A stretch of 64,000 nucleotides of DNA from Gammaproteobacteria bacterium (lineage in GTDB: Bacteria > Pseudomonadota > Gammaproteobacteria > Eutrophobiales > Eutrophobiaceae). The position numbers and the translations under genes are program-made. How positions within the stretch are numbered: the first letter of the stretch is position 1; each line of letters starts with the position of its first letter. This document shows, one piece after another, positions 71-58,194 of this stretch. The stretch spans positions 1 to 64,000 of the forward strand of contig JAJFKL010000018.1 in NCBI GenBank assembly GCA_021773235.1, in the 5' to 3' direction. Below the pieces are notes generated by a model. That model made no database searches and was not told the origin of the DNA. It was given only the letters and a program-made list of their open reading frames with translations.

Positions 71-1864
71 ATGAACAAACCAAAGATTCTGATCGTAGAC
101 GATGAACGATTATTTCTGAATATCATCGTAGATTTACTCAAGGATGACTACGAGACTTTCACAGCTAAAAATGGTAATGAGGCTCTTGAATATATCAAGA
201 GTGAATCTCTACCAGATCTTATTATCCTAGATATTGTCCTGCCTGATATGGATGGTTTTGAAGTTTGTAAGCACTTCAAGAAAAGTAAACATACCTGTGA
301 TATTCCAATTATTTTTCTGACCATAAAATCAGATGTTGACGATGAAACCAAGGGGTTTGAAGCTGGCGCAATAGACTACATCACCAAACCAATTAGCCCG
401 GCTATTCTAAAGGCTCGAGTCAAGACGCATATTGCATTGATGCAAGCACATAAGAAGCTTGCACAACATGCTCTGGATTTAGAGAGAACTGTTGCAGAAA
501 GAACACGCGAATTAACCAATGAAATAGAAGAACGCAAAACCATAGAAACGCAATTACGTTTTCTGGCCAATTATGACTTACTCACTAAACTTCCAAATCG
601 AATTCTGTTTAGAGAACATCTAGATCAATCAATCAAACAAGCGCAGCGAAACAAAAGTTCTGTCGCATTACTATTAATAGACATCGATGGCTTTAAACAT
701 ATTAATGATAGCTTGGGTCATCATCAGGGCGATGTACTTCTACAAGCAGTAGCAGATAGATTAAGTGTTTGTATCAGAGATGTCGATCAAGTCGCTCGTT
801 TAGGCGGCGATGAGTTTACTGTCATTCTTGCTGAAACGACGGACAAGAAAAGTGCCGCCCTTGTTGCTGAAAAAATAATTAAGACTATATCAAATCCTAT
901 ACAGCTCGATCGACAGGAAGTTTATATCAGTGCTAGCGTAGGCATAACATTGCTTCCTAAAGATACAAGTGACCCCAGTACATTACTGGGTTATGCAGAT
1001 ATGGCGATGTACGAAGCCAAGGCCAAAGGTAAAAATGCTTATGAATTCTACACATCACGATTATTAAGCCGTGTTCATACACGTGTTGATATGGAGAAAG
1101 AATTGCATAAGGCTATAGGCACAAAACAACTACAACTCTACTACCAGCCAATCTTTAAAACACAGCACGGTGAACTCTATGGCGCAGAAGCTTTAATCAG
1201 GTGGAAGCATCCTGATCGGGGGTTAATATCACCGGTAGAATTCATACCTATAGCTGAAGATAGCGACCTTATTCTACAATTAGGGGAATGGGTATTAGAA
1301 GAAGCTATTAAAACAGCTGCACACTGGAATAAAGTTGGTGAAGAAAGTGAGTTTCATATTGCAGTTAATATGTCATCCAGACAATTTCAGCAGGACAGCA
1401 CAAGTATAGAATTAGTAGATCAATTTTTATCTGAATTCGACCTATCCCCTCACCTTTTGAACCTTGAGATCACAGAAAGTCTGATGATGGAAGACCGGCA
1501 TAAGGTTATTAACAAACTTAATGCATTAGATAAGATAGGCGTTGGATTATCTATTGATGATTTCGGCACAGGCTATTCTTCATTAAGCTATATTCGCCGT
1601 TTCCCGATTAATACCATCAAGATAGATAAATCATTTATTCACGACATCACGCTTGATTCCGAAGACGCGACCCTCATCACTGCTATAATTGCTATGGCAA
1701 AAAACCTGGGGATGAATGTCGTTGCAGAGGGAGTTGAAACTGCAGAACAATATCGTTTTCTACAAGATCATGGTTGTGACATTGTGCAAGGCTATTACTT
1801 TTGCAAACCTGTTCCACAAGACAAATTTGAAAAAGATTTTTTTAAGCTGCTGCAATCGGTATAA
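71..1864 (+). CDS. Receiver-GGDEF-EAL cyclic-di-GMP signalling protein
   Basis: A 597-residue cytoplasmic response regulator that likely makes and/or breaks cyclic-di-GMP. Residues 1-120 form a receiver domain with acidic pair D10/D11, phospho-acceptor D54, T84 and K106. A helical, probably coiled-coil linker (about 120-165) leads to a GGDEF domain with intact GGDEF at 245-249, preceded by an RxxD sequence five residues upstream that matches the allosteric inhibitory I-site. The EAL domain has E373-A-L and downstream DDFGTGYSSL, EGVET and QGYYF motifs, so both catalytic halves look intact. No membrane segment is visible. It stands alone; a partner kinase is not in view upstream. Which activity dominates cannot be read from sequence. 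Confidence 0.95.
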   Translation: MNKPKILIVDDERLFLNIIVDLLKDDYETFTAKNGNEALEYIKSESLPDLIILDIVLPDMDGFEVCKHFKKSKHTCDIPIIFLTIKSDVDDETKGFEAGAIDYITKPISPAILKARVKTHIALMQAHKKLAQHALDLERTVAERTRELTNEIEERKTIETQLRFLANYDLLTKLPNRILFREHLDQSIKQAQRNKSSVALLLIDIDGFKHINDSLGHHQGDVLLQAVADRLSVCIRDVDQVARLGGDEFTVILAETTDKKSAALVAEKIIKTISNPIQLDRQEVYISASVGITLLPKDTSDPSTLLGYADMAMYEAKAKGKNAYEFYTSRLLSRVHTRVDMEKELHKAIGTKQLQLYYQPIFKTQHGELYGAEALIRWKHPDRGLISPVEFIPIAEDSDLILQLGEWVLEEAIKTAAHWNKVGEESEFHIAVNMSSRQFQQDSTSIELVDQFLSEFDLSPHLLNLEITESLMMEDRHKVINKLNALDKIGVGLSIDDFGTGYSSLSYIRRFPINTIKIDKSFIHDITLDSEDATLITAIIAMAKNLGMNVVAEGVETAEQYRFLQDHGCDIVQGYYFCKPVPQDKFEKDFFKLLQSV

Positions 1865-49047: not shown

Positions 49048-49590
49048 ATGAAGAAATCTTCCGGCATATCAGACGAAGATAGCGCGCTATTTCGCAAATC
49101 TGTTGGTGATGCAAAACCACTAAAGCAAGATAGTTTTATTGCTGATAAACCTAGGCCAAAAGCTCACCCTGCAAAAACGGAAGCCGACAACCTTGCTGTC
49201 ATTGAAGAAATGAGTAATGCTGATTTTGATTCCAGTATATTAGAACGAGGTGATGAGCTTATTTATACAAGCCCCGGAGTTCAAAATAATATATTAAAAA
49301 AATTACGCCGTGGTCATTATAAGATTGAAGCAGAATTGGATTTACATGGCATGACCGTTGATAGTGCTAAAGTTGCATTAACTGATTTCCTTAAACAATG
49401 CACAGTGCGATCTCAACGCTGCGTTAGGATTATTCATGGCAAAGGCCTAGGATCTATTAATAAAAAACCAGTCATAAAAAACAAACTTAACCAATGGTTG
49501 CAAAAAATGGATATTGCACAAGCTTTTTGCTCAGCAAGACCTGCTGATGGTGGTACCGGGGCAATATATTTGTTATTAAAACGTAAATAA
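49048..49590 (+). CDS. Smr-domain protein
   Basis: 180 residues. The C-terminal Smr domain (about 95-180) shows ELDLHGMT and IIHGKGLGS, then the ARPADGGTGAIYLLL end, typical of the small MutS-related nuclease-like family (E. coli YfcN/SmrA-B type). E. coli SmrB cleaves mRNA at collided ribosomes, but this one could be either SmrA or SmrB. The N-terminal ~90 residues are charged and probably disordered. It ends 26 bases before the first hybrid kinase. Confidence 0.9.
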   Translation: MKKSSGISDEDSALFRKSVGDAKPLKQDSFIADKPRPKAHPAKTEADNLAVIEEMSNADFDSSILERGDELIYTSPGVQNNILKKLRRGHYKIEAELDLHGMTVDSAKVALTDFLKQCTVRSQRCVRIIHGKGLGSINKKPVIKNKLNQWLQKMDIAQAFCSARPADGGTGAIYLLLKRK

Positions 49591-49616
49591 CTAGCAATAG
49601 CCGGAGTTAAATATCG

Positions 49617-52151
49617 ATGAAGGAACATGATAATAAAACACTACTATCTTTTTTTAAGGATCGCCCTGATAGTGAACTTGAACAAAGCGCTATTAGAATA
49701 GTTCTTTTGTTTCTATTAACCGGCTACTTTTATTACTTCAGAGATTCAATTAGTCAATTCTCTCACCTATCGAAATTAATGCCTGTTTCAATAAGTGTAG
49801 CTTTAGTATTTTTTATCATAACCAGCGTTTCAAACAACACCTCCATGCCACGAAAAGTAATATCAATTATTCTCGATATGAGTGTACTTTCGTACATGAT
49901 ATATTTAACTGATTATGTTGGCTTACCTTTAATTTTTATTTATCTCTGGATATCTTTTGGGAATGGATTTCGGTTTGGAAATAAATGTCTATTGATAAGT
50001 GTGCTGTTTAGCATTATTGGTTTTAGTCTGGTTTTAACATATAACGAATATTGGCAAGGGTTAAAAAGTCTAGGCTATGGCGTTATTTTTGCGTTGATGA
50101 CCTTGTCATTGTATGTGTCATTTCTGATCACAAAATTACACACCACGGCTAATGATGCCAACACTGCTAATGCTGCCAAAAGTCAATTCCTTGAGAATAT
50201 GAGCCATGAAATACGTACGCCTCTAAACGGAGTGATAGGAATGAGTTCATTACTTTCAAGCACTGAACTGACCAGCAAACAGAATGAGTTTGCTTCGACT
50301 ATCAATGTTTCTGCAAAAACATTATTAGCTCTCATTAATGATATTTTAGACATATCGAAAATAGAGGCAGGAAAGATGACAGCTGAGTCTGTCGACTTTG
50401 ATCTTTACGCCATGGTCAATTCAATTGCAGCAATGTTTATAGCACAAATAAAAAGGAAAGGATTAGTCTTCAATATACATATATCGCCTGATACGCCTTT
50501 CTTATTGCATGGTGACAAACAACACTTAAGACAGGTCATTATTAACCTTATTGGCAATGCGATTAAATTTACTAATAAAGGTTCTATCGAAATATTTGTT
50601 ACCCCTGTCAAAATTTCAGATAACCATGTAACTATAAGAATTGAAGTGATTGATACCGGCATTGGTATTGCTGATGAAGACAAGCCAAAAATATTTGAGA
50701 AATTCACACAGGCGGATAACTCAATCACGCGTAATTATGGTGGTACTGGTTTAGGCATGGCTATAGCTAAACAATTGGTTGATAAAATGAATGGCCAAAT
50801 AGACTTCAGCAGTCAATTAAGCGTAGGCTCCAATTTTTGGTGCGAAATTACTTTTAATAGAAAATCTACGCTAACTGAAGAAAAGACCTCTTTACCTTAT
50901 TTTAAAGATGAAAAACTATTGATAGTCAACTCACAGAGAGAACACAGTCAGGTAATTGAAAAACATTTGTCAGAATGGGGAGTCTTATTTGAATACGCAA
51001 TTGATGCCCGTGAAAGCTTTGAGAAAATATTGCACGTATCGAGCAATAACAAACCCTACCGTCTTATTCTCGTGTTTAATAAATTTCTGAATGCCAACGC
51101 AATACAACTCATATCTAAAATAAAGGAAAAATCCAATTACCTTAATCATGCCTTTATATTAGTTAACGATCATAATCTAAGTGATATAAATAATGCTGAG
51201 CTGTTAAAAGCAGGGTATAACTCAATCATTAAGAATAATTCTGAAAGATCTATCTTAATTAGAGCATTACATGCCTCTATCGCAGGAATAAGTCCAAATG
51301 GATTAGAAAACAAATCGGACTATATCTCCAAACAAAATACCCTCTATAAACCGAATAATAGAAAGCTGAATATTCTTGTCGGTGAAGATAACGAAACAAA
51401 TCAAAAAGTAATTAAGAATATTCTTGAATATGGCCATCACATGGTAACTCTGGCTGATAATGGTGAAATAGTGCTTGATATCCTTGAAGACAATGACTTC
51501 GATCTTATTATTTTAGATATGCATATGCCACTTATGAGTGGTCTTGAGGCTGCAAAAATATTTCGTTTCATGCGCCCTGACAAAATAGATACACCGATAA
51601 TGATGCTGACGGCTAATGCTACACCAGAAGCCATCAAGGAATGTAAAGAAGCAAATATCGATGCTTATTTAACAAAGCCAATCGAACCCGAAATATTATT
51701 ACAAAATATATCCTCATTGGTAGAACAAAATAATAACACTTCAGATTTGTATGAAAAACCACTCAATGTTATTAATATTAATGAATCAGATAATATTAGT
51801 ATATTAGACACTGATGTCTTAGAGACTATTTACACGATGGCAAAGGAAGAAAGTTTCATGAGAAATTTAATTGATGACTATCTTTGTGATGTCAAAAAAA
51901 ATATAGACCAAATTATCTCTTCTATGCATGACGCTAACTTTAAGAAGGTTGCTGATCTTTCACATACAGTGGATGGCAGTTCACGTTCAGTTGGCGCAAA
52001 AAAACTTTCCAGATTAGCAGATAAGATCTTTAAATTAGCTCAGTCTGAACAACAACAGGCAATGAAAAACAAAATCACTGATTTAAAAATGCTTTATGAA
52101 GAAACTGCAAGCGCATTAGAAAGATTTTTGGATAATAAAAAATCTGCATAG
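49617..52151 (+). CDS. rpfC: RpfC-type hybrid sensor kinase, copy 1
   Basis: A membrane hybrid kinase, 844 residues. Order: short cytoplasmic N-terminus with D18-S19-E20 (the triplet in the DSF-sensing N-terminus of Xanthomonas RpfC), about five membrane helices (27-170), dimerisation domain with phospho-His H197 in MSHEIRTPLNG, HATPase (DTGIGI, GGTGLGMAI), a receiver-like domain without Asp (about 430-555), a true receiver with D634, and a C-terminal Hpt domain with H783 (HTVDGSSRS). Xanthomonas RpfC has the same plan minus the extra domain. A good ribosome site (CGGAG) precedes the ATG. Assigned as DSF receptor; ligand is inferred from family. Confidence 0.88.
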   Translation: MKEHDNKTLLSFFKDRPDSELEQSAIRIVLLFLLTGYFYYFRDSISQFSHLSKLMPVSISVALVFFIITSVSNNTSMPRKVISIILDMSVLSYMIYLTDYVGLPLIFIYLWISFGNGFRFGNKCLLISVLFSIIGFSLVLTYNEYWQGLKSLGYGVIFALMTLSLYVSFLITKLHTTANDANTANAAKSQFLENMSHEIRTPLNGVIGMSSLLSSTELTSKQNEFASTINVSAKTLLALINDILDISKIEAGKMTAESVDFDLYAMVNSIAAMFIAQIKRKGLVFNIHISPDTPFLLHGDKQHLRQVIINLIGNAIKFTNKGSIEIFVTPVKISDNHVTIRIEVIDTGIGIADEDKPKIFEKFTQADNSITRNYGGTGLGMAIAKQLVDKMNGQIDFSSQLSVGSNFWCEITFNRKSTLTEEKTSLPYFKDEKLLIVNSQREHSQVIEKHLSEWGVLFEYAIDARESFEKILHVSSNNKPYRLILVFNKFLNANAIQLISKIKEKSNYLNHAFILVNDHNLSDINNAELLKAGYNSIIKNNSERSILIRALHASIAGISPNGLENKSDYISKQNTLYKPNNRKLNILVGEDNETNQKVIKNILEYGHHMVTLADNGEIVLDILEDNDFDLIILDMHMPLMSGLEAAKIFRFMRPDKIDTPIMMLTANATPEAIKECKEANIDAYLTKPIEPEILLQNISSLVEQNNNTSDLYEKPLNVININESDNISILDTDVLETIYTMAKEESFMRNLIDDYLCDVKKNIDQIISSMHDANFKKVADLSHTVDGSSRSVGAKKLSRLADKIFKLAQSEQQQAMKNKITDLKMLYEETASALERFLDNKKSA

Positions 52152-52444
52152 CTTTAAACTAGCATCAAATACACCAATTTTGGCTAAATTAATTTAGAAG
52201 GATTTTCTCTAAATATATGCATGTTGAGTATTTAGTCGGATATTACCTAGTTTAAGATTTCGATAACGCAGACAGATATCAAATCAATACTCTAAAAATC
52301 AGATATCGAGCAAGATTAATTACTAATAATACGCAGATATAGAACTTAATAGTGGTTTATCAGTTATTAAAACGTGCATCAGTGACTAGAGTTGTATTAA
52401 TATTCAATTAATTATAAGAACCATCAAAATTCAGGGAATTCGAC

Positions 52445-53512
52445 ATGATGTCATCGCACCTGAGTAACGTCGCCAAAACTACAACTTCATCAATAATCTA
52501 CATTGTCGATGATGAGACTGTTAGCCGAATGTTACTGAGCAAAACTATTGAAAATATTGATTCTGGAATAACTGTAAAGTCATTCCAAAGTGCACCTGCG
52601 GCACTTGCAGCAACTGAGACATCCCCGCCCGATCTGATTATTACTGATTACAAAATGCCTATCATGGATGGTATTGAATTCACCAAGCGAATTAGACAAC
52701 TGCACAATTGTAAAGATATCCCTATTATCATGGTAACCATCATTGATGACCGTTCAGTACTGCATAATGCATTACAAAATGGTGTCACAGAATTCCTCAA
52801 CAAACCTTTTGATAAGATTGAATGCGAAGCAAGGTGTAAAAATCTATTACAGCTAGGAAAACGTCAAACAAAATTAAAGCAGCGTAGCTTTAAACTTGAA
52901 AAAAGGATCAGCGAAACTACTGAAGAAATACTTCTTCGAGAAAAAGAAACATTAATACGTTTAACGAGAGCATGTGGGTTTAAAGATTGTATAACAGGTG
53001 AACACCTACTCAGAATCGGCAGAATCAGCAAGATTATTGCACTGGAATTAGGCTTTGATGAGGCATATGCAGAAATTTTAGAAACAGCCTCTCCGTTACA
53101 TGATATAGGGAAACTAGCTATACCTGATAATATCTTAATGAAAAAAGGTAAGCTGACTATACAAGAGTTTGACGTCATGAAAACGCATACAACCATCGGC
53201 TATGAAATACTTAAGGATAGTCCATCACCTTATTTACAAACAGGTGCTTTAATTGCTCTTAATCACCACGAAAAATATGATGGTAGTGGTTACCCAAATA
53301 AAATATCGGGCAATGATATTCCTGTAGAAGCCAGGATTGTTACCGTTGCAGATGTATTTGACTCATTAAGCAATCACCGACCTTATAAAAAAGCCTGGCC
53401 GATGAATGAAACTATTGATTATTTAATTGAACAACAATGCAAGCACCTTGACCCCGAGTGTGTAAAGGCATTAGTAAGTAGAATTAATGATGTAAATTTA
53501 CCATCTAAATAA
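52445..53512 (+). CDS. rpfG: RpfG-type response regulator with HD-GYP phosphodiesterase domain
   Basis: Degrades cyclic-di-GMP when phosphorylated by the RpfC relay. 355 residues: receiver domain with acidic pair D22/D23, phospho-acceptor D68 and K120; helical linker (about 135-170); HD-GYP domain with H219-D220-I-G-K and HHEKYDGSGYP (274-284), so catalytic residues are intact. The plan is that of Xanthomonas RpfG. AGGGAA 8 bases upstream of ATGATG is a good ribosome site. It lies between the two kinases and 29 bases before rpfC2, so those two are likely cotranscribed. The 293 bases before it are AT-rich with no clear feature. Confidence 0.9.
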   Translation: MMSSHLSNVAKTTTSSIIYIVDDETVSRMLLSKTIENIDSGITVKSFQSAPAALAATETSPPDLIITDYKMPIMDGIEFTKRIRQLHNCKDIPIIMVTIIDDRSVLHNALQNGVTEFLNKPFDKIECEARCKNLLQLGKRQTKLKQRSFKLEKRISETTEEILLREKETLIRLTRACGFKDCITGEHLLRIGRISKIIALELGFDEAYAEILETASPLHDIGKLAIPDNILMKKGKLTIQEFDVMKTHTTIGYEILKDSPSPYLQTGALIALNHHEKYDGSGYPNKISGNDIPVEARIVTVADVFDSLSNHRPYKKAWPMNETIDYLIEQQCKHLDPECVKALVSRINDVNLPSK

Positions 53513-53541
53513 ATTACAAAAAATGACTTGATCGTTTATCA

Positions 53542-56097
53542 ATGAATAATAATTTAATTACATTAGTTCAGTCTCGACTACAAAATCGTGAAGATTCTGA
53601 ACACATACAAACGGTTATCAGGTTTGCCATGGGGGTTACTTGGCTACTATATATATCGTGGTTAAATCGATATACAAACATTGATTCTGCGGCTGCGACA
53701 ACAACATCATGTCTATATATTGCTTGCTGTCTGCTTAATTTGGTCTGGATAGTAATTACTCCGAAACAGCTCCCTATTCGTCGCTACCTAAGCATTGTTT
53801 TGGATATAGCATTTGCATCATTTGCATTTTATCTTCTGGGCGAATATGGCGCACCCTTAATAGGGGCCTATTTATTTCTAATATTCGGATATGGCTTTCG
53901 ATACGGAAATAAGTATTTATATATAAGTACCGCCATTAGTATTGCTGGAATTTCTTTAGTGATGATATACAGTCCTTATTGGCAAAAGGAAATTATGCAC
54001 GGATACGGTGCAATTATTTCAATTACGATCCTATCTGCTTATGTATCAACATTAATATCACTACTGCATAAATCGATTAATGCAGCCAATTCAGCAAATG
54101 AAGCTAAAAGCCAATTCCTAGCAAATATGAGTCATGAAATTCGCACGCCGCTTAATGGTGTAGTGGGGATGAGTTCGTTGCTGTCAACAACTGAGCTAAA
54201 TAGTAAACAAGAAGAATATTCATCGACCATTAATGCTTCTGCCAAAACATTGTTAGCATTAATCAACGATATTCTTGATATTTCGAAGATAGAGGCGGGT
54301 AAAATAACGATAGAAAAAGTAGAATTTGATCTGCATGCTCTTGTTAACTCAACCGCAAAAATGCTTTCCCCTCAAGCAGTCATTAAAGGATTAAAGTTCA
54401 ATATACATATATCACCTGAAATCCCTTATTTGGTGTGTGGTGATGAACAGCATTTAAGACAAGTTATTATTAACCTTATTAGTAATGCTATTAAATTCAC
54501 GCAAAAGGGTTCTATTGAAATCTATTTATCATTAGTCTCAACAAATGAAAACAAGGCTAGAATAATGTTTGAAGTCATTGATACAGGTATTGGTATCGCT
54601 GATGAATCAAGATCAAATATATTTGATAAATTTACCCAAGCAGATGCTTCTACAACCCGTAATTTTGGTGGTACTGGACTTGGGATGGCCATTGCTAAAC
54701 AGTTAGTCGGTGCAATGAACGGCGAAATAGATTTCACCAGTGTGCTTGGAGAAGGCTCAACATTTTGGTTTAATTTAGAATTTGAACAACAGGATATATT
54801 GTCAGAAGAAAACCATTCTCTAGATCATTTTTCTGGTACGCATTTATTAATCATCAACCCAATAAAAGATAAATACCAAACTATTCAGGAACATCTCTCA
54901 TTGTGGCCAGTATTATATGAACAATCAGACCGTGCTAAAGATGCGATAGATATGATTGTAACTGCAAACTCTGAAAATAATCCGTTCAATGTCATTCTTG
55001 TTTTTAAAAAATATCTTGATACTGACCCGATTAACTTTATCAATCAGTCAAGAATAAAATCAAGCTTCAAAGATCATTCATTCATACTCATTAATGATGA
55101 TGATCTACCAGAGCCCGTCATATCTGAGTTACTACAAGCAGGTTATTCATCCATGATACGTAGCAATCTTGATAGAACAAAGTTCTTCAGGGCATTGCAC
55201 GCCGTTATTTCAGGTGATAACGCGATATCATCAAATAATAGCATTCGTAAATCTGAAGATAATTCACCCAGCAATTCTTTGGCAAAGAGACTGAAGATAC
55301 TTGTTGGTGAAGATAACAAGACAAACCAGCAAGTAATCAAGAGCATTCTTGAATATGGTAACCATCATGTAACACTAGCCAATAATGGTGAAGAAGTATT
55401 AGATATACTGGAAGATAATATATTTGATCTAATTATTCTTGATATGCAAATGCCTGTTATGGGTGGAATAGAAGCTGCAAAAATATATCGTCAGATGTAT
55501 CCAGAAAAGCGAGATATTCCTATATTGATGCTAACTGCTAATGCCACAAAGGAAGCTCATGATGCTTGCAAGGAGGCAAAACTAGATGCTTATTTAACTA
55601 AACCTGTTGAACCTGACAAACTTATCAAGGTTATTACTTCTCTTGTTGCTGATAAAAATAATGATGCTTTAGTTGAGAGTAATGAAATATTAAAAGTTGT
55701 TGATATTAACAACCCCAATAATTCTCCACTAATTGATAATGTCTCTTTGGAATCATTAGCTTCAATGGCCAGTGACTCATCATTTATGAAAACCTTGATA
55801 GAAGGTTACATACGAGACACAACTAATTCTATAGCACAAATGTCTCTGTTTTCTTCTAATAATGATTTTAACAAATTATCTGAACTAGCCCATAGTGTCG
55901 ATGGAAGTTCACGTTCAATTGGAGCAAAGAGACTGTCAAGAATTGCCGATTCAATATATAAACAAGCTCAATCCAGACAACATAAATTAATTTTAAATAA
56001 TCTGGAATTGATAAATAGCGTTTTTGAAGAAACACATACTGAATTAAACTTATTTCTTTCAAAGTCTGCTACATCAACTTCACAACAAAATAGTTAG
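53542..56097 (+). CDS. RpfC-type hybrid sensor kinase, copy 2
   Basis: Paralogue of the copy at 49.6 kb with the same order over 851 residues: N-terminal D18-S19-E20, about five membrane helices, phospho-His H198 in MSHEIRTPLNG, HATPase, a receiver-like domain without Asp (about 430-560), receiver with D634, Hpt with H784 (HSVDGSSRS). The two copies are collinear; the membrane/sensor part has diverged much more than the kinase part. This suggests tandem duplication and possible specialisation, for instance to different fatty-acid signals. Weak ribosome site. It ends 68 bases before the convergent desaturase gene. Confidence 0.88.
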   Translation: MNNNLITLVQSRLQNREDSEHIQTVIRFAMGVTWLLYISWLNRYTNIDSAAATTTSCLYIACCLLNLVWIVITPKQLPIRRYLSIVLDIAFASFAFYLLGEYGAPLIGAYLFLIFGYGFRYGNKYLYISTAISIAGISLVMIYSPYWQKEIMHGYGAIISITILSAYVSTLISLLHKSINAANSANEAKSQFLANMSHEIRTPLNGVVGMSSLLSTTELNSKQEEYSSTINASAKTLLALINDILDISKIEAGKITIEKVEFDLHALVNSTAKMLSPQAVIKGLKFNIHISPEIPYLVCGDEQHLRQVIINLISNAIKFTQKGSIEIYLSLVSTNENKARIMFEVIDTGIGIADESRSNIFDKFTQADASTTRNFGGTGLGMAIAKQLVGAMNGEIDFTSVLGEGSTFWFNLEFEQQDILSEENHSLDHFSGTHLLIINPIKDKYQTIQEHLSLWPVLYEQSDRAKDAIDMIVTANSENNPFNVILVFKKYLDTDPINFINQSRIKSSFKDHSFILINDDDLPEPVISELLQAGYSSMIRSNLDRTKFFRALHAVISGDNAISSNNSIRKSEDNSPSNSLAKRLKILVGEDNKTNQQVIKSILEYGNHHVTLANNGEEVLDILEDNIFDLIILDMQMPVMGGIEAAKIYRQMYPEKRDIPILMLTANATKEAHDACKEAKLDAYLTKPVEPDKLIKVITSLVADKNNDALVESNEILKVVDINNPNNSPLIDNVSLESLASMASDSSFMKTLIEGYIRDTTNSIAQMSLFSSNNDFNKLSELAHSVDGSSRSIGAKRLSRIADSIYKQAQSRQHKLILNNLELINSVFEETHTELNLFLSKSATSTSQQNS

Positions 56098-56118
56098 ATT
56101 AATTCATCGGCATTGGTA

Positions 56119-56146
56119 ATTAATGAGGCTTCCTTGTCTCATTAAT
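56119..56146. terminator. Hairpin between convergent rpfC2 and desaturase genes
   Basis: A perfect 9-bp stem ATTAATGAG/CTCATTAAT with a 10-base loop. Being symmetrical it could end transcription from both sides. The stem is AT-rich and no long T-tract follows, so efficiency is uncertain. Confidence 0.45.
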
Positions 56147-56165
56147 ACAATACTAATCTAAATCA

Positions 56166-57242
56166 TTAAGCCGCTTCTGCGTAATCCAGTTCTCCGACTA
56201 TCAATGTGTTAGAACTGGTTGGGTTTCCCTCAAAATCAATCCATAGATGATTTCCATAATCATATAACTTGCATTTTTTCATCGTTAAAAGAAAGTTGAT
56301 TAGTGAGAAATCCATAGTAATTAAATCCTCTTCACACAACTCACATAAAACTGTCTGCGCTTTGGACAAGTTGTAGAGTGGCACTCTCGGATCAACATGG
56401 TGTGCAGTGTGCTCCATTGCATTATGACTAATCAGATTATACCAATGCGGGTATTTTATATGTACAGTAACATCTTCGTTACTGCCATATACTTTACTCT
56501 CTTCTATGGTCTTAAACCATGGAACAGTTTCATGTGTATGATGTTGATATACGGTCACTCCTATCAAGAAATTGCTTACTAAAAACGGAATGACTAGTGC
56601 TATTAATAATACTTCTAACGGATTTGTATGTGCGACGTGCACTCCCAGATAAATAAGTGCTATCGTAAAGGAAACCATATAGGTAAACACAAGAATAAAG
56701 TCCAGATAATAAGATATATTCTGCTGTCTAACAATTCGTTTGTACGGAAAAAACTTGTCTTTCCACCAACGCTCAATCATGTAGTTAAAACAAATACCAT
56801 ACGGAGAGCGATATAGACGTTCCATTATTTTTCTACTTGTTGAAAAACCGTCATAGTCTTCTTTTGATAGAGGAGACCATGAATTCAAACCTTTAATATT
56901 AGGTGTTTGATGATGTGCACGATTGTGAGCGATTAACCATAAACTGTAGTTATGAAATGATGGTAAAAAAGCTATGCGACCTATTATAGAATTCCACATT
57001 CGGTTAGATGTGAAACTATCATGTGCCGCATCATGTGAAACCAGAAACAGTGTCCCTATTCTAAGACCTGCTAAAACACCACATACTATCCGTAATATAA
57101 GACTTTCAAACATGATTGCACCAGCTATCGCTAGTGCATAGATTGTGAGATCCGAAAAAAATATAAATAATGCAAGTTTGTTTGATGGCTTTGCATACTG
57201 TTTTATTGCGTAACGTAACTCTTTCGTATTTAAATTCTTCAT
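56166..57242 (-). CDS. Membrane fatty acid desaturase
   Basis: A di-iron integral-membrane desaturase, 358 residues from the ATG chosen at 57242 (AGGTGA 5 bases upstream; the frame continues to a GTG at 57251). Three His boxes are seen: HDAAH (70-74), HNRAHH (106-111) and HTAHH (278-282), with hydrophobic pairs of helices between them. Residues between boxes 2 and 3 include an extra HHTH. Substrate and position of the double bond are unknown. It starts 46 bases after rpfF on the same strand, so it is probably cotranscribed, and may shape the signal or its precursor. Confidence 0.9.
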   Translation of the reverse strand: MKNLNTKELRYAIKQYAKPSNKLALFIFFSDLTIYALAIAGAIMFESLILRIVCGVLAGLRIGTLFLVSHDAAHDSFTSNRMWNSIIGRIAFLPSFHNYSLWLIAHNRAHHQTPNIKGLNSWSPLSKEDYDGFSTSRKIMERLYRSPYGICFNYMIERWWKDKFFPYKRIVRQQNISYYLDFILVFTYMVSFTIALIYLGVHVAHTNPLEVLLIALVIPFLVSNFLIGVTVYQHHTHETVPWFKTIEESKVYGSNEDVTVHIKYPHWYNLISHNAMEHTAHHVDPRVPLYNLSKAQTVLCELCEEDLITMDFSLINFLLTMKKCKLYDYGNHLWIDFEGNPTSSNTLIVGELDYAEAA

Positions 57243-57288
57243 TATTGTCACCTATTTCTAAAACTTGTTTAATTTTTCTATTTAAAAA

Positions 57289-58194
57289 TCAAGATACACT
57301 AACTTTTGAATACTCATGTTGATACTCTGTCTCGTATCTTTTCTGGCTACGTAACAAACGGTTAATTGTGCGAATATCTTTCTCAGAAATATCAAAAACT
57401 GTATCAACCCAGGAATTACAACAAATATCCATAAGTTCTTGTTGATCATAATTATTTATACCCTGAACGATTTTTTGCATCGCCATATTCCCATTCCAGT
57501 TTTTATTATGGTTTTGGACATAGGAATAAACAGCTTCTTCACCTTGATGATCATCGACAAGAATATCTACAATACCCATGTCATAGAGCTCTTCCGCACT
57601 ATATAAATTTCCGCTAGAAATTAATTTATGTGCTTTGTTCAACCCTACTCTTGATGAAAGTGTTTGAAATGCACCCATACCTGGAAAACAATTAAACAAT
57701 ATTTCAGGAAAACCCATCATTGCCGAACGTTCAGCAATGATTACATCACCTGACAAAGCTATTTCAAAACCACCACCAAGCGCATTACCTCTTACCAAAG
57801 AGATAGTGACAATAGGTAAATCAAAATTTGTCATTATTGGGTAGATTGCTTTTATACAGTTAGCAGCGTACTTCTCCAGAGCGATCTTATCTTGGTTCTC
57901 AATGCAATTTAAAAAATGATTGAGGTCACCTCCTAAACTAAATATTCCATCTGCGTGTGAATCAAGAACATGATACTTAACTGTTTGAAGTTCCCCATCA
58001 ATTGGTAACTGCCCATTATTTATTTCAATACATCGATGTAAGGAACGAATGTCATCAACTAATTGTGGCGTTACACATGGTTTTGGAAAGGCATCAAGAT
58101 AGACCCAGATTATTCCGTCGTCTGCATCAAATTCATAATTGATGTGTTCGAGTTTATTTATTGTATTTTTTAAACTGAAATTTAACGTATTCAT
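57289..58194 (-). CDS. rpfF: DSF synthase RpfF (crotonase family)
   Basis: A 301-residue crotonase-fold enzyme. E144 (in GGGFE) and E164 (in GFPE) are 20 residues apart, as are the catalytic Glu141 and Glu161 of Xanthomonas RpfF. FSLGGDLNHF forms the oxyanion-loop region, and the FPGMG segment follows. RpfF dehydrates 3-hydroxyacyl-ACP to the cis-2 form and releases the free acid (DSF). An ordinary enoyl-CoA hydratase lacks this residue pattern and has shorter N- and C-terminal parts. GGGAG upstream of ATG is a good ribosome site. Chain length and branching of the product cannot be told. Confidence 0.92.
   Translation of the reverse strand: MNTLNFSLKNTINKLEHINYEFDADDGIIWVYLDAFPKPCVTPQLVDDIRSLHRCIEINNGQLPIDGELQTVKYHVLDSHADGIFSLGGDLNHFLNCIENQDKIALEKYAANCIKAIYPIMTNFDLPIVTISLVRGNALGGGFEIALSGDVIIAERSAMMGFPEILFNCFPGMGAFQTLSSRVGLNKAHKLISSGNLYSAEELYDMGIVDILVDDHQGEEAVYSYVQNHNKNWNGNMAMQKIVQGINNYDQQELMDICCNSWVDTVFDISEKDIRTINRLLRSQKRYETEYQHEYSKVSVS

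Follow-up and report, generated by a model that had tools for sequence, protein, structure and literature searches.

A predicted fatty-acid signalling locus with two RpfC-family kinases around one RpfG and a desaturase beside rpfF in a gammaproteobacterium

How a fatty-acid quorum-sensing system changes its signal without breaking communication is an open question in the field, and a gammaproteobacterial contig, JAJFKL010000018.1 of assembly GCA_021773235.1, carries a locus that bears on it. Here, we analysed the first 64,000 nucleotides of this contig, hereafter the window, in which five adjacent genes resemble the rpf genes of diffusible signal factor (DSF) systems. Two receptor kinase genes of the RpfC type, rpfC1 (C1) and rpfC2 (C2), lie around a single rpfG, and C2 is convergent with a pair made of a desaturase gene and the synthase gene rpfF. 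In the model of Xanthomonas campestris pathovar campestris (Xcc), as outlined in passages of PMC4504480, RpfF releases a cis-2-unsaturated acid, RpfC senses it, and phosphorylated RpfG degrades cyclic di-GMP (c-di-GMP). We consider it moderately probable that the window holds a DSF-type quorum-sensing locus in which two receptors feed one RpfG and the desaturase is dedicated to the system. RpfF would make a cis-2-unsaturated fatty acid from a 3-hydroxyacyl acyl carrier protein. The signal would leave the cell and be bound at the N-terminal membrane-proximal segment of both RpfC receptor kinases, which would relay phosphate through REC and Hpt to the single RpfG, and phosphorylated RpfG would degrade c-di-GMP. 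The desaturase would most likely act on the signal or its precursor to introduce a second double bond, or offset the lipid drain caused by RpfF, and the second receptor may have let the lineage hear two fatty acids, one of its own and one used formerly or by a neighbour, during a change of synthase. The identity of the signal, its binding, the phosphotransfer from both kinases to RpfG, the co-transcription of the genes and the substrate of the desaturase are predictions of this model.

The family membership of RpfF, RpfC and RpfG, their catalytic and DSF-contact residues and the gene order are read from the sequence. The sequence-only reading that had proposed these five genes is borne out in coordinates, strands and identities by open reading frames (ORFs), domains and trees, and all five frames are open, where they had first been placed, in the ORF listing of the window. 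RpfF has a crotonase fold. Its top match in the PDB is RpfF 3m6m (E 5.3e-47); of the next three, one bears the RpfF name and the others have general names of crotonases or hydratases. It scores above the cut-off of PRK08788 (315.6 vs 177 bits), a broader model than the NCBIfam RpfF equivalog. The catalytic glutamate pair, E144 and E164, is invariant in 26 aligned sequences and aligns to glutamates of 3m6m. Of the 67 RpfF-type rows available, 30 went into a tree together with 23 hydratase rows, two of which are identical; L071 and L072, being the same contigs as G003 and G022, were omitted. The RpfF-type rows are split from the ordinary crotonase and hydratase rows at 100/100, with the window RpfF among the former, which rules out an ordinary enoyl-CoA hydratase, the alternative that had been named at the outset. 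By this placement the window RpfF is a member of the DSF synthase family, and its product is predicted to be a cis-2-unsaturated fatty acid. RpfG has REC and HD domains (Pfam) with a full HD-GYP motif (HDIGK and HHEKYDGSGYP); its top PDB match is 4mcw, a metal dependent phosphohydrolase (E 2e-51), and it is a predicted c-di-GMP phosphodiesterase.

Both kinases are composed of HisKA, HATPase_c, REC and Hpt domains (Pfam). They are 53% identical to each other (441/838 columns), while the next-best kinase of the genome by score reaches 32% over residues 172-843. By part, C1 and C2 share 38% of the sensor residues, against 71% for both the kinase core and REC. A quick tree of 48 rows included as controls Escherichia coli BarA, ArcB, TorS and RcsC and six other kinases of the window genome, which lie on long branches and some of which are cut by the fetched stretch. 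In this tree, 38 rpf-locus kinases, among them C1, C2 and a distant extra kinase (G044b), stand apart from the 10 controls with SH-aLRT values of 99-100. A BarA-type identity, which had been raised as a possible outcome, is rejected by this placement, and by the same token C1 and C2 are members of the RpfC family. The REC stretch of C2 also matches the RpfC chain 3m6m_D (E 5.4e-19). According to passages of PMC5391125, RpfC of Xcc senses DSF via R15, D17, S18, E19 and Q22, and all five residues are matched in both C1 and C2 within residues 16-23. Among the rpf-locus kinases, 13/38 carry the strict pattern R-x-D-[ST]-E-x-x-Q, against 0/10 controls, some of them cut. Both window kinases have the residues for sensing and relay. 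Set against the five N-terminal transmembrane helices of RpfC, a simple hydropathy scan gives about five hydrophobic stretches in C1 and about four above threshold in C2.

To place the cluster among its relatives, we used a family sample of 53 genomes, a wider search of 96 genomes and a class-wide sample of 369 genomes. RpfF-type matches (E 1.9e-33 or better) occur in 31/96 genomes, 25 of them among the 53 of the family. The 31 loci around these matches were fetched, and rpfF is in the ORF listing of 29 (not in L051 and L055). An RpfC-like gene faces rpfF, directly or across a desaturase, in 23 of these 29 loci; the six exceptions comprise G003, which is truncated, G031, which is broken, G017 and G007, which are cut by contig ends, and two distant loci (G064 and G067). 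Among the 24 family loci with rpfF, ispF, ispD or eno lies on one side in 21 and smr or purL on the other in 19, and several of the misses are contig ends. Given these shared flanks and the facing RpfC, a cluster with one receptor is the ordinary, syntenic form in the family, and the site between purL-smr and ispF-ispD-eno is used across it. The arrangement is conserved wholly or partly in related genomes, and the cluster is therefore not a product of chance. In the class-wide sample, with two candidates scored per genome, 71/369 genomes match RpfC at 1e-100; of these 71, 57 have one or more matches that start before query residue 155, within the sensor part. The sequence-only reading had described the system as not commonly described in this lineage, and by these counts it is not rare in such lineages. 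Rarity was overstated, and passages of PMC4504480 already report rpfF-rpfG-rpfC clusters for Methylophaga, Thiobacillus, Methylobacillus and Leptospirillum.

Some loci depart from the common plan. In G399, from another family (L169 8843-14854, C7), two RpfC-like kinases, one of 701 amino acids on the + strand and a second in two ORFs on the - strand, lie near an RpfF, apparently as an independent double-receptor locus. Besides its syntenic pair, G035 carries rpfF and rpfC once more on a different contig (L064 2823-5437). In G044 (L047 10352-13180), an extra ORF of 151 amino acids and a distant hybrid kinase are located between rpfF and ispF. G171, also from another family (L166, L167), has one RpfC flanked by smr and an ORF that contains ispF, in a stretch where no rpfF is listed; its second rpfC is on a different contig, where it faces an rpfF.

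The synthase varies far more than its surroundings. Between the window genome (G000) and G004, G011 and G001, enolase is 89-90% identical and RpfF 40-44%; between G004 and G001 the values are 93% for enolase, 75% for RpfG and 43% for RpfF. Across genera, the RpfFs of G011 and G017 are 72% identical. A single clade for the RpfFs of the genus is rejected (p-AU 0.00012), as is a grouping of the window RpfF group with G011 and G007 (p-AU 0.00115). A clade combining the window RpfF group and the RpfFs linked to a desaturase is not rejected (p-AU 0.158), so we do not claim that the window RpfF was imported from a desaturase-less group. By sequence comparison, RpfF is swapped or hypervariable within the genus, while the flanking genes are conserved. 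Expressed as the median ratio to the ispF/ispD distance, divergence within the genus and outside it (numbers of pairs in brackets) is 2.99 (15) and 1.17 (15) for RpfF, 2.14 (15) and 1.77 (10) for the position-2 RpfC, 2.25 (10) and 1.78 (6) for the desaturase, 1.61 (10) and 1.37 (3) for RpfG, and 1.64 (15) and 1.80 (10) for smr.

RpfF distances also follow those of the receptor sensor. Given the flanking distance, RpfF correlates with the RpfC sensor at r 0.72 (P 0.0002, 11 genomes), with the whole RpfC at r 0.62 (P 0.0002) and with the kinase core at r 0.40 (P 0.004), and it is not clearly correlated with RpfG (r 0.32, P 0.055, 8 genomes) or smr (r 0.12, P 0.18). Its correlation with the desaturase is r 0.73 (P 0.006, 8 genomes); the desaturase and RpfG values are from the full set, near-copies included. 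When the near-copies G009 and G006 are dropped, the correlation with the sensor is r 0.56 (P 0.023), with the kinase core r 0.25 (P 0.17) and with smr r -0.11; when G024 is dropped too, it is r 0.64 (P 0.026) with the sensor and r 0.27 (P 0.18) with the whole RpfC. These sets are small (11, 9 or 8 genomes) and the RpfF distances are near saturation.

The desaturase that had been noted as an addition to the cluster is real. It matches FA_desaturase (PF00487, E 4.1e-26) and has the histidine boxes HDAAH, HNRAHH and HNAMEHTAHH. Its start is probably the ATG at 57242, three codons inside the listed GTG, because Met 4 is invariant in 9 aligned sequences. Homologues (E 1e-10 or better) are found in 9/53 family genomes, one in each, and all nine directly adjoin rpfF by coordinates; in the class-wide sample they occur in 12/369 genomes. 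Outside the family, the surroundings of the gene were inspected in stretches from six genomes of five other families. In five of them (G159, G080, G060, G223 and G078) tblastn of the stretch gave no rpf homologue. Since these stretches are mostly without rpf genes, the linkage of desaturase and rpfF is a feature of the family, perhaps shared by the family of the sixth genome, G384; like the history of loss and divergence described below, it is read from sequence comparison. In G384 (L160 7526-11305, C20), the desaturase (42% identical) and an RpfC are divergently arranged at the end of a contig, and the stretch holds no rpfF or rpfG. We infer from the linkage within the family that the desaturase is a dedicated part of the DSF system.

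The desaturase could instead serve membrane lipid repair, offsetting the release of fatty acid by the RpfF thioesterase in a role like that of RpfB. We regard this as a serious contender, although we lean away from it. Passages of PMC4504480 describe RpfB as countering the RpfF thioesterase in Xcc, and a passage of PMC8659556, citing earlier work, says that an rpfF mutant of Xcc changes fatty acid desaturase expression. The cluster is without rpfB, as the sequence-only reading had said: the neighbours of rpfF are the desaturase and an ORF that we take to be ispF. Unlinked FadD-like ligases (best 34% identity) lie elsewhere in the genome and count against a repair role of the desaturase; because of these ligases, and because the assembly is 81% complete, an RpfB function could still be supplied. 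Moreover, 16 of the 25 RpfF-positive family genomes have no desaturase match, at least one of them (G007) being cut by a contig end.

The doubling of RpfC is likewise real, and it did not arise by local copying. Two RpfC-type kinases around RpfG (E 1e-80 or better) are found only in the window genome and in G004 among the 53 family genomes. Among 12 genomes of the genus, the window genome alone has both receptors at full length and with the strict motif. In relation to the window genome, G009 and G006 are the nearest relatives, and G004 and G001 belong to the sister species. In a tree of 178 columns, the window C1, the C1 of G004 and a remnant in G001, which is 81% identical to the G004 C1, are grouped at 95/91*. 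In the full-length tree, the window C1 pairs with the G004 C1 at 90/90, and the two join the intact G001 copy at 94/98; the values are not starred. The data reject a group made up of the window C1 and the C2 of G000, G009 and G006 (p-AU 0.010), which rules out a recent tandem duplication. The position-2 kinases as a single clade are also rejected (p-AU 0.034), the intact G001 copy being nearer to the C1 group. The flanking-gene tree (11 rows) has G000, G009 and G006 together, next to G004 and G001, with G011 outside. As C1 is shared with the sister species, it most simply predates the split of G000 and G004; C1 is thus probably an older lineage, which existed before the window species separated from its sister.

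Several observations weigh against a DSF locus with two receptors and a dedicated desaturase. The nearest genomes, G009 and G006, are without C1, so C1 is dispensable: the deletion in G009 is almost exactly the C1 gene (window 49610-52147), and that in G006 covers window 49600-52359. G006 has also lost the HD-GYP half of RpfG (window ~53011-53542) by a deletion that ends at the C2 start and leaves a REC-only protein (L041 13849-14418). In G003, a deletion running up to smr has removed the cluster (window ~49597-57447) but for a truncated rpfF (L042 9236-10081) that keeps residues 1-246. The C1 of G004 is short (708 amino acids) with a degenerate DSF motif, KPDNAQQQ, and the G001 remnant has a stop. 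Furthermore, RpfF misses the NCBIfam RpfF equivalog cut-off (NF053515, 198 vs 550 bits), and its product may therefore not be a known DSF. The strict DSF pattern is missed by 25/38 rpf-locus kinases, some rows being incomplete, and so is no sure mark of RpfC; L098, L102 and L104, from or near Lysobacteraceae, are among the kinases without it. The desaturase has weak matches only in PDB and NCBIfam, and it adjoins RpfC in just one of the six inspected genomes of other families. With the near-copies dropped, the correlation of RpfF with the whole RpfC loses significance (r 0.43, P 0.059). The window C1 in place of C2 gives an equal sensor correlation (r 0.56 each), so the two do not point to a cognate RpfF-receptor pair. 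Finally, promoter-like sites in the window are not above shuffles (39 found vs 48.4 expected).

From the losses and decay of C1 in G009, G006, G004 and G001, and its rarity in the family, it could be argued that C1 is a relic, redundant and kept by chance, and that the working system is the single-receptor one of C2, RpfG and RpfF. We find this plausible and, on balance, doubtful. All 844 codons of C1 are open, and its phospho-acceptor (SHEIRTP), DSF residues and REC and Hpt motifs are all present. The divergence of C1 and C2 is highest at third codon positions (0.58 vs 0.36 and 0.28).

Alternatively, C1 and C2 could sense different ligands, one the system's own signal and the other a DSF that is foreign or was used formerly, and both act on RpfG as a stage in a switch of specificity, which we hold to be rather unlikely. 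The low sensor identity of C1 and C2 relative to their kinase core and REC agrees with it, as do the contrast between RpfF and enolase identities and the rejected monophyly of the genus RpfFs. However, sensor identity is equally low between single orthologues (45% for G011 and 40% for G004), and therefore the value for C1 and C2 is no proof of a new specificity. The placement of the window RpfF with the desaturase-linked group, which is not rejected, leaves room for fast divergence of RpfF instead of its replacement. A fuller version, which we judge improbable, is a signal switch in which RpfF and the desaturase give the lineage a modified, for example dienoic, DSF of its own and two RpfCs of different specificity act on one RpfG, one tuned to the present signal and the other to that of an ancestor or a neighbour. 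Across the genus, the synthase would then change in step with the desaturase and the receptor sensor, with RpfG and the surroundings fixed, and the locus would be a fatty-acid counterpart of peptide pherotypes. That there is no DSF system at all, the kinases being general BarA/TorS-like hybrids and RpfF an ordinary hydratase, is hardly credible: BarA and TorS do rank top in NCBIfam for both kinases over the part after the sensor, but far below cut-off (BarA scores of 413 for C1 and 433 for C2 vs 890 bits), and the trees put RpfF and the kinases with rpf-locus proteins.

The features of the locus are collected in Table 1. The gaps are 26 bp between smr and C1, 293 bp between C1 and rpfG, 29 bp between rpfG and C2, 68 bp between the convergent C2 and desaturase genes, and 37 bp between the desaturase gene and rpfF. 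To the left lie an ORF that is presumably purL and the smr gene, which has an Smr domain (Pfam) and scores below the NCBIfam SmrA and SmrB cut-offs. The right flank also includes ispD, a DivIC/FtsB-type gene, enolase, a DAHP-synthase-family gene and CTP synthase (Pfam). Terminator-like sites are slightly above shuffles (9 vs 5.2, standard deviation 2.6), and neither Rfam nor tRNA scans of the window gave a match. At window 71-1864, the best NCBIfam matches are GGDEF-EAL and receiver proteins, possibly a further c-di-GMP enzyme.

Table 1 Features of the rpf locus in the window.
Feature	Position	Strand	Length	Description
rpfC1 (C1)	49617-52151	+	844 aa	Hybrid histidine kinase, RpfC family, first receptor
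rpfG	52445-53512	+	355 aa	REC + HD-GYP response regulator, predicted c-di-GMP phosphodiesterase
rpfC2 (C2)	53542-56097	+	851 aa	Hybrid histidine kinase, RpfC family, second receptor
Desaturase	56166-57251	-	361 aa	Membrane fatty-acid desaturase, 3' of rpfF on the same strand
rpfF	57289-58194	-	301 aa	DSF synthase family crotonase
C1 DSF-sensing segment	49662-49685	+		RPDSELEQ, codons 16-23 (pattern scan)
C2 DSF-sensing segment	53587-53610	+		REDSEHIQ, codons 16-23 (pattern scan)
Direct repeat, copy 1	49572-49584	+	13 bp	GTTATTAAAACGT, end of smr gene, left of C1
Direct repeat, copy 2	52363-52375	+	13 bp	Between C1 and rpfG; the repeat brackets C1

The preferred reading, a DSF system with two receptors, one RpfG and a dedicated desaturase, would depict a system that is diversifying its signal and its receptor. 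For the question of how signals change, the family offers natural intermediates: a fixed site, a variable synthase and receptor, a doubled receptor in stages of decay, and a desaturase tied to rpfF. This enzyme is a candidate for introducing the additional double bonds of some DSF relatives; in PMC4542539, on the origin of DSF-family signals including CDSF, which has a second double bond, the word desaturase is absent from the main text.

Compared with the Xanthomonas rpfF/rpfGHC cluster, the window locus is alike in RpfF, RpfC and RpfG, the convergence of rpfC and rpfF, the DSF-contact residues and the HD-GYP output. It differs in having two RpfCs around RpfG, a desaturase behind rpfF, and neither rpfB nor rpfH in the cluster. 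The window kinases are also longer (844 and 851 amino acids vs 717 and 714 in the L102 and L104 loci), with an extra stretch of about 130 amino acids before REC that has no Pfam match. The four genera named above show the same three genes outside the xanthomonads, according to passages of PMC4504480; in a Methylophaga contig (L078), rpfG-rpfC is convergent to rpfF as in the window, but there is one RpfC and no desaturase match, and the Thiobacillus, Methylobacillus and Leptospirillum clusters are compared here by the published description. In Stenotrophomonas maltophilia, the rpf-1 and rpf-2 alleles described in passages of PMC4517397 also show variable rpfF and rpfC, probably exchanged between lineages. 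Each strain there has one allele pair, whereas the window genome has two RpfCs; set against those alleles, it is RpfF that varies more than RpfG and the flanks here. Five acidophile genomes have two distinct RpfCs and one RpfG per strain (PMC9040811) and are alike by count, the passages concerned being silent on whether both flank RpfG in one cluster. Other passages note RpfC/RpfG in a vent gammaproteobacterium (PMC4136832) and an RpfC split into two genes in Leptospirillum ferriphilum (PMC8357829). Titles and abstract openings listed from the open PMC literature mention no rpfF-adjacent desaturase and no two full RpfCs flanking RpfG, and the desaturase passages in most PMC papers that name rpfF, desaturase and diffusible signal factor describe no such linkage; within these listings, the two features were not found together either. 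Single-receptor rpfG-rpfC/rpfF clusters are thus already widespread, and what is unusual in this locus is the second receptor, the rpfF-linked desaturase and the variability of RpfF.

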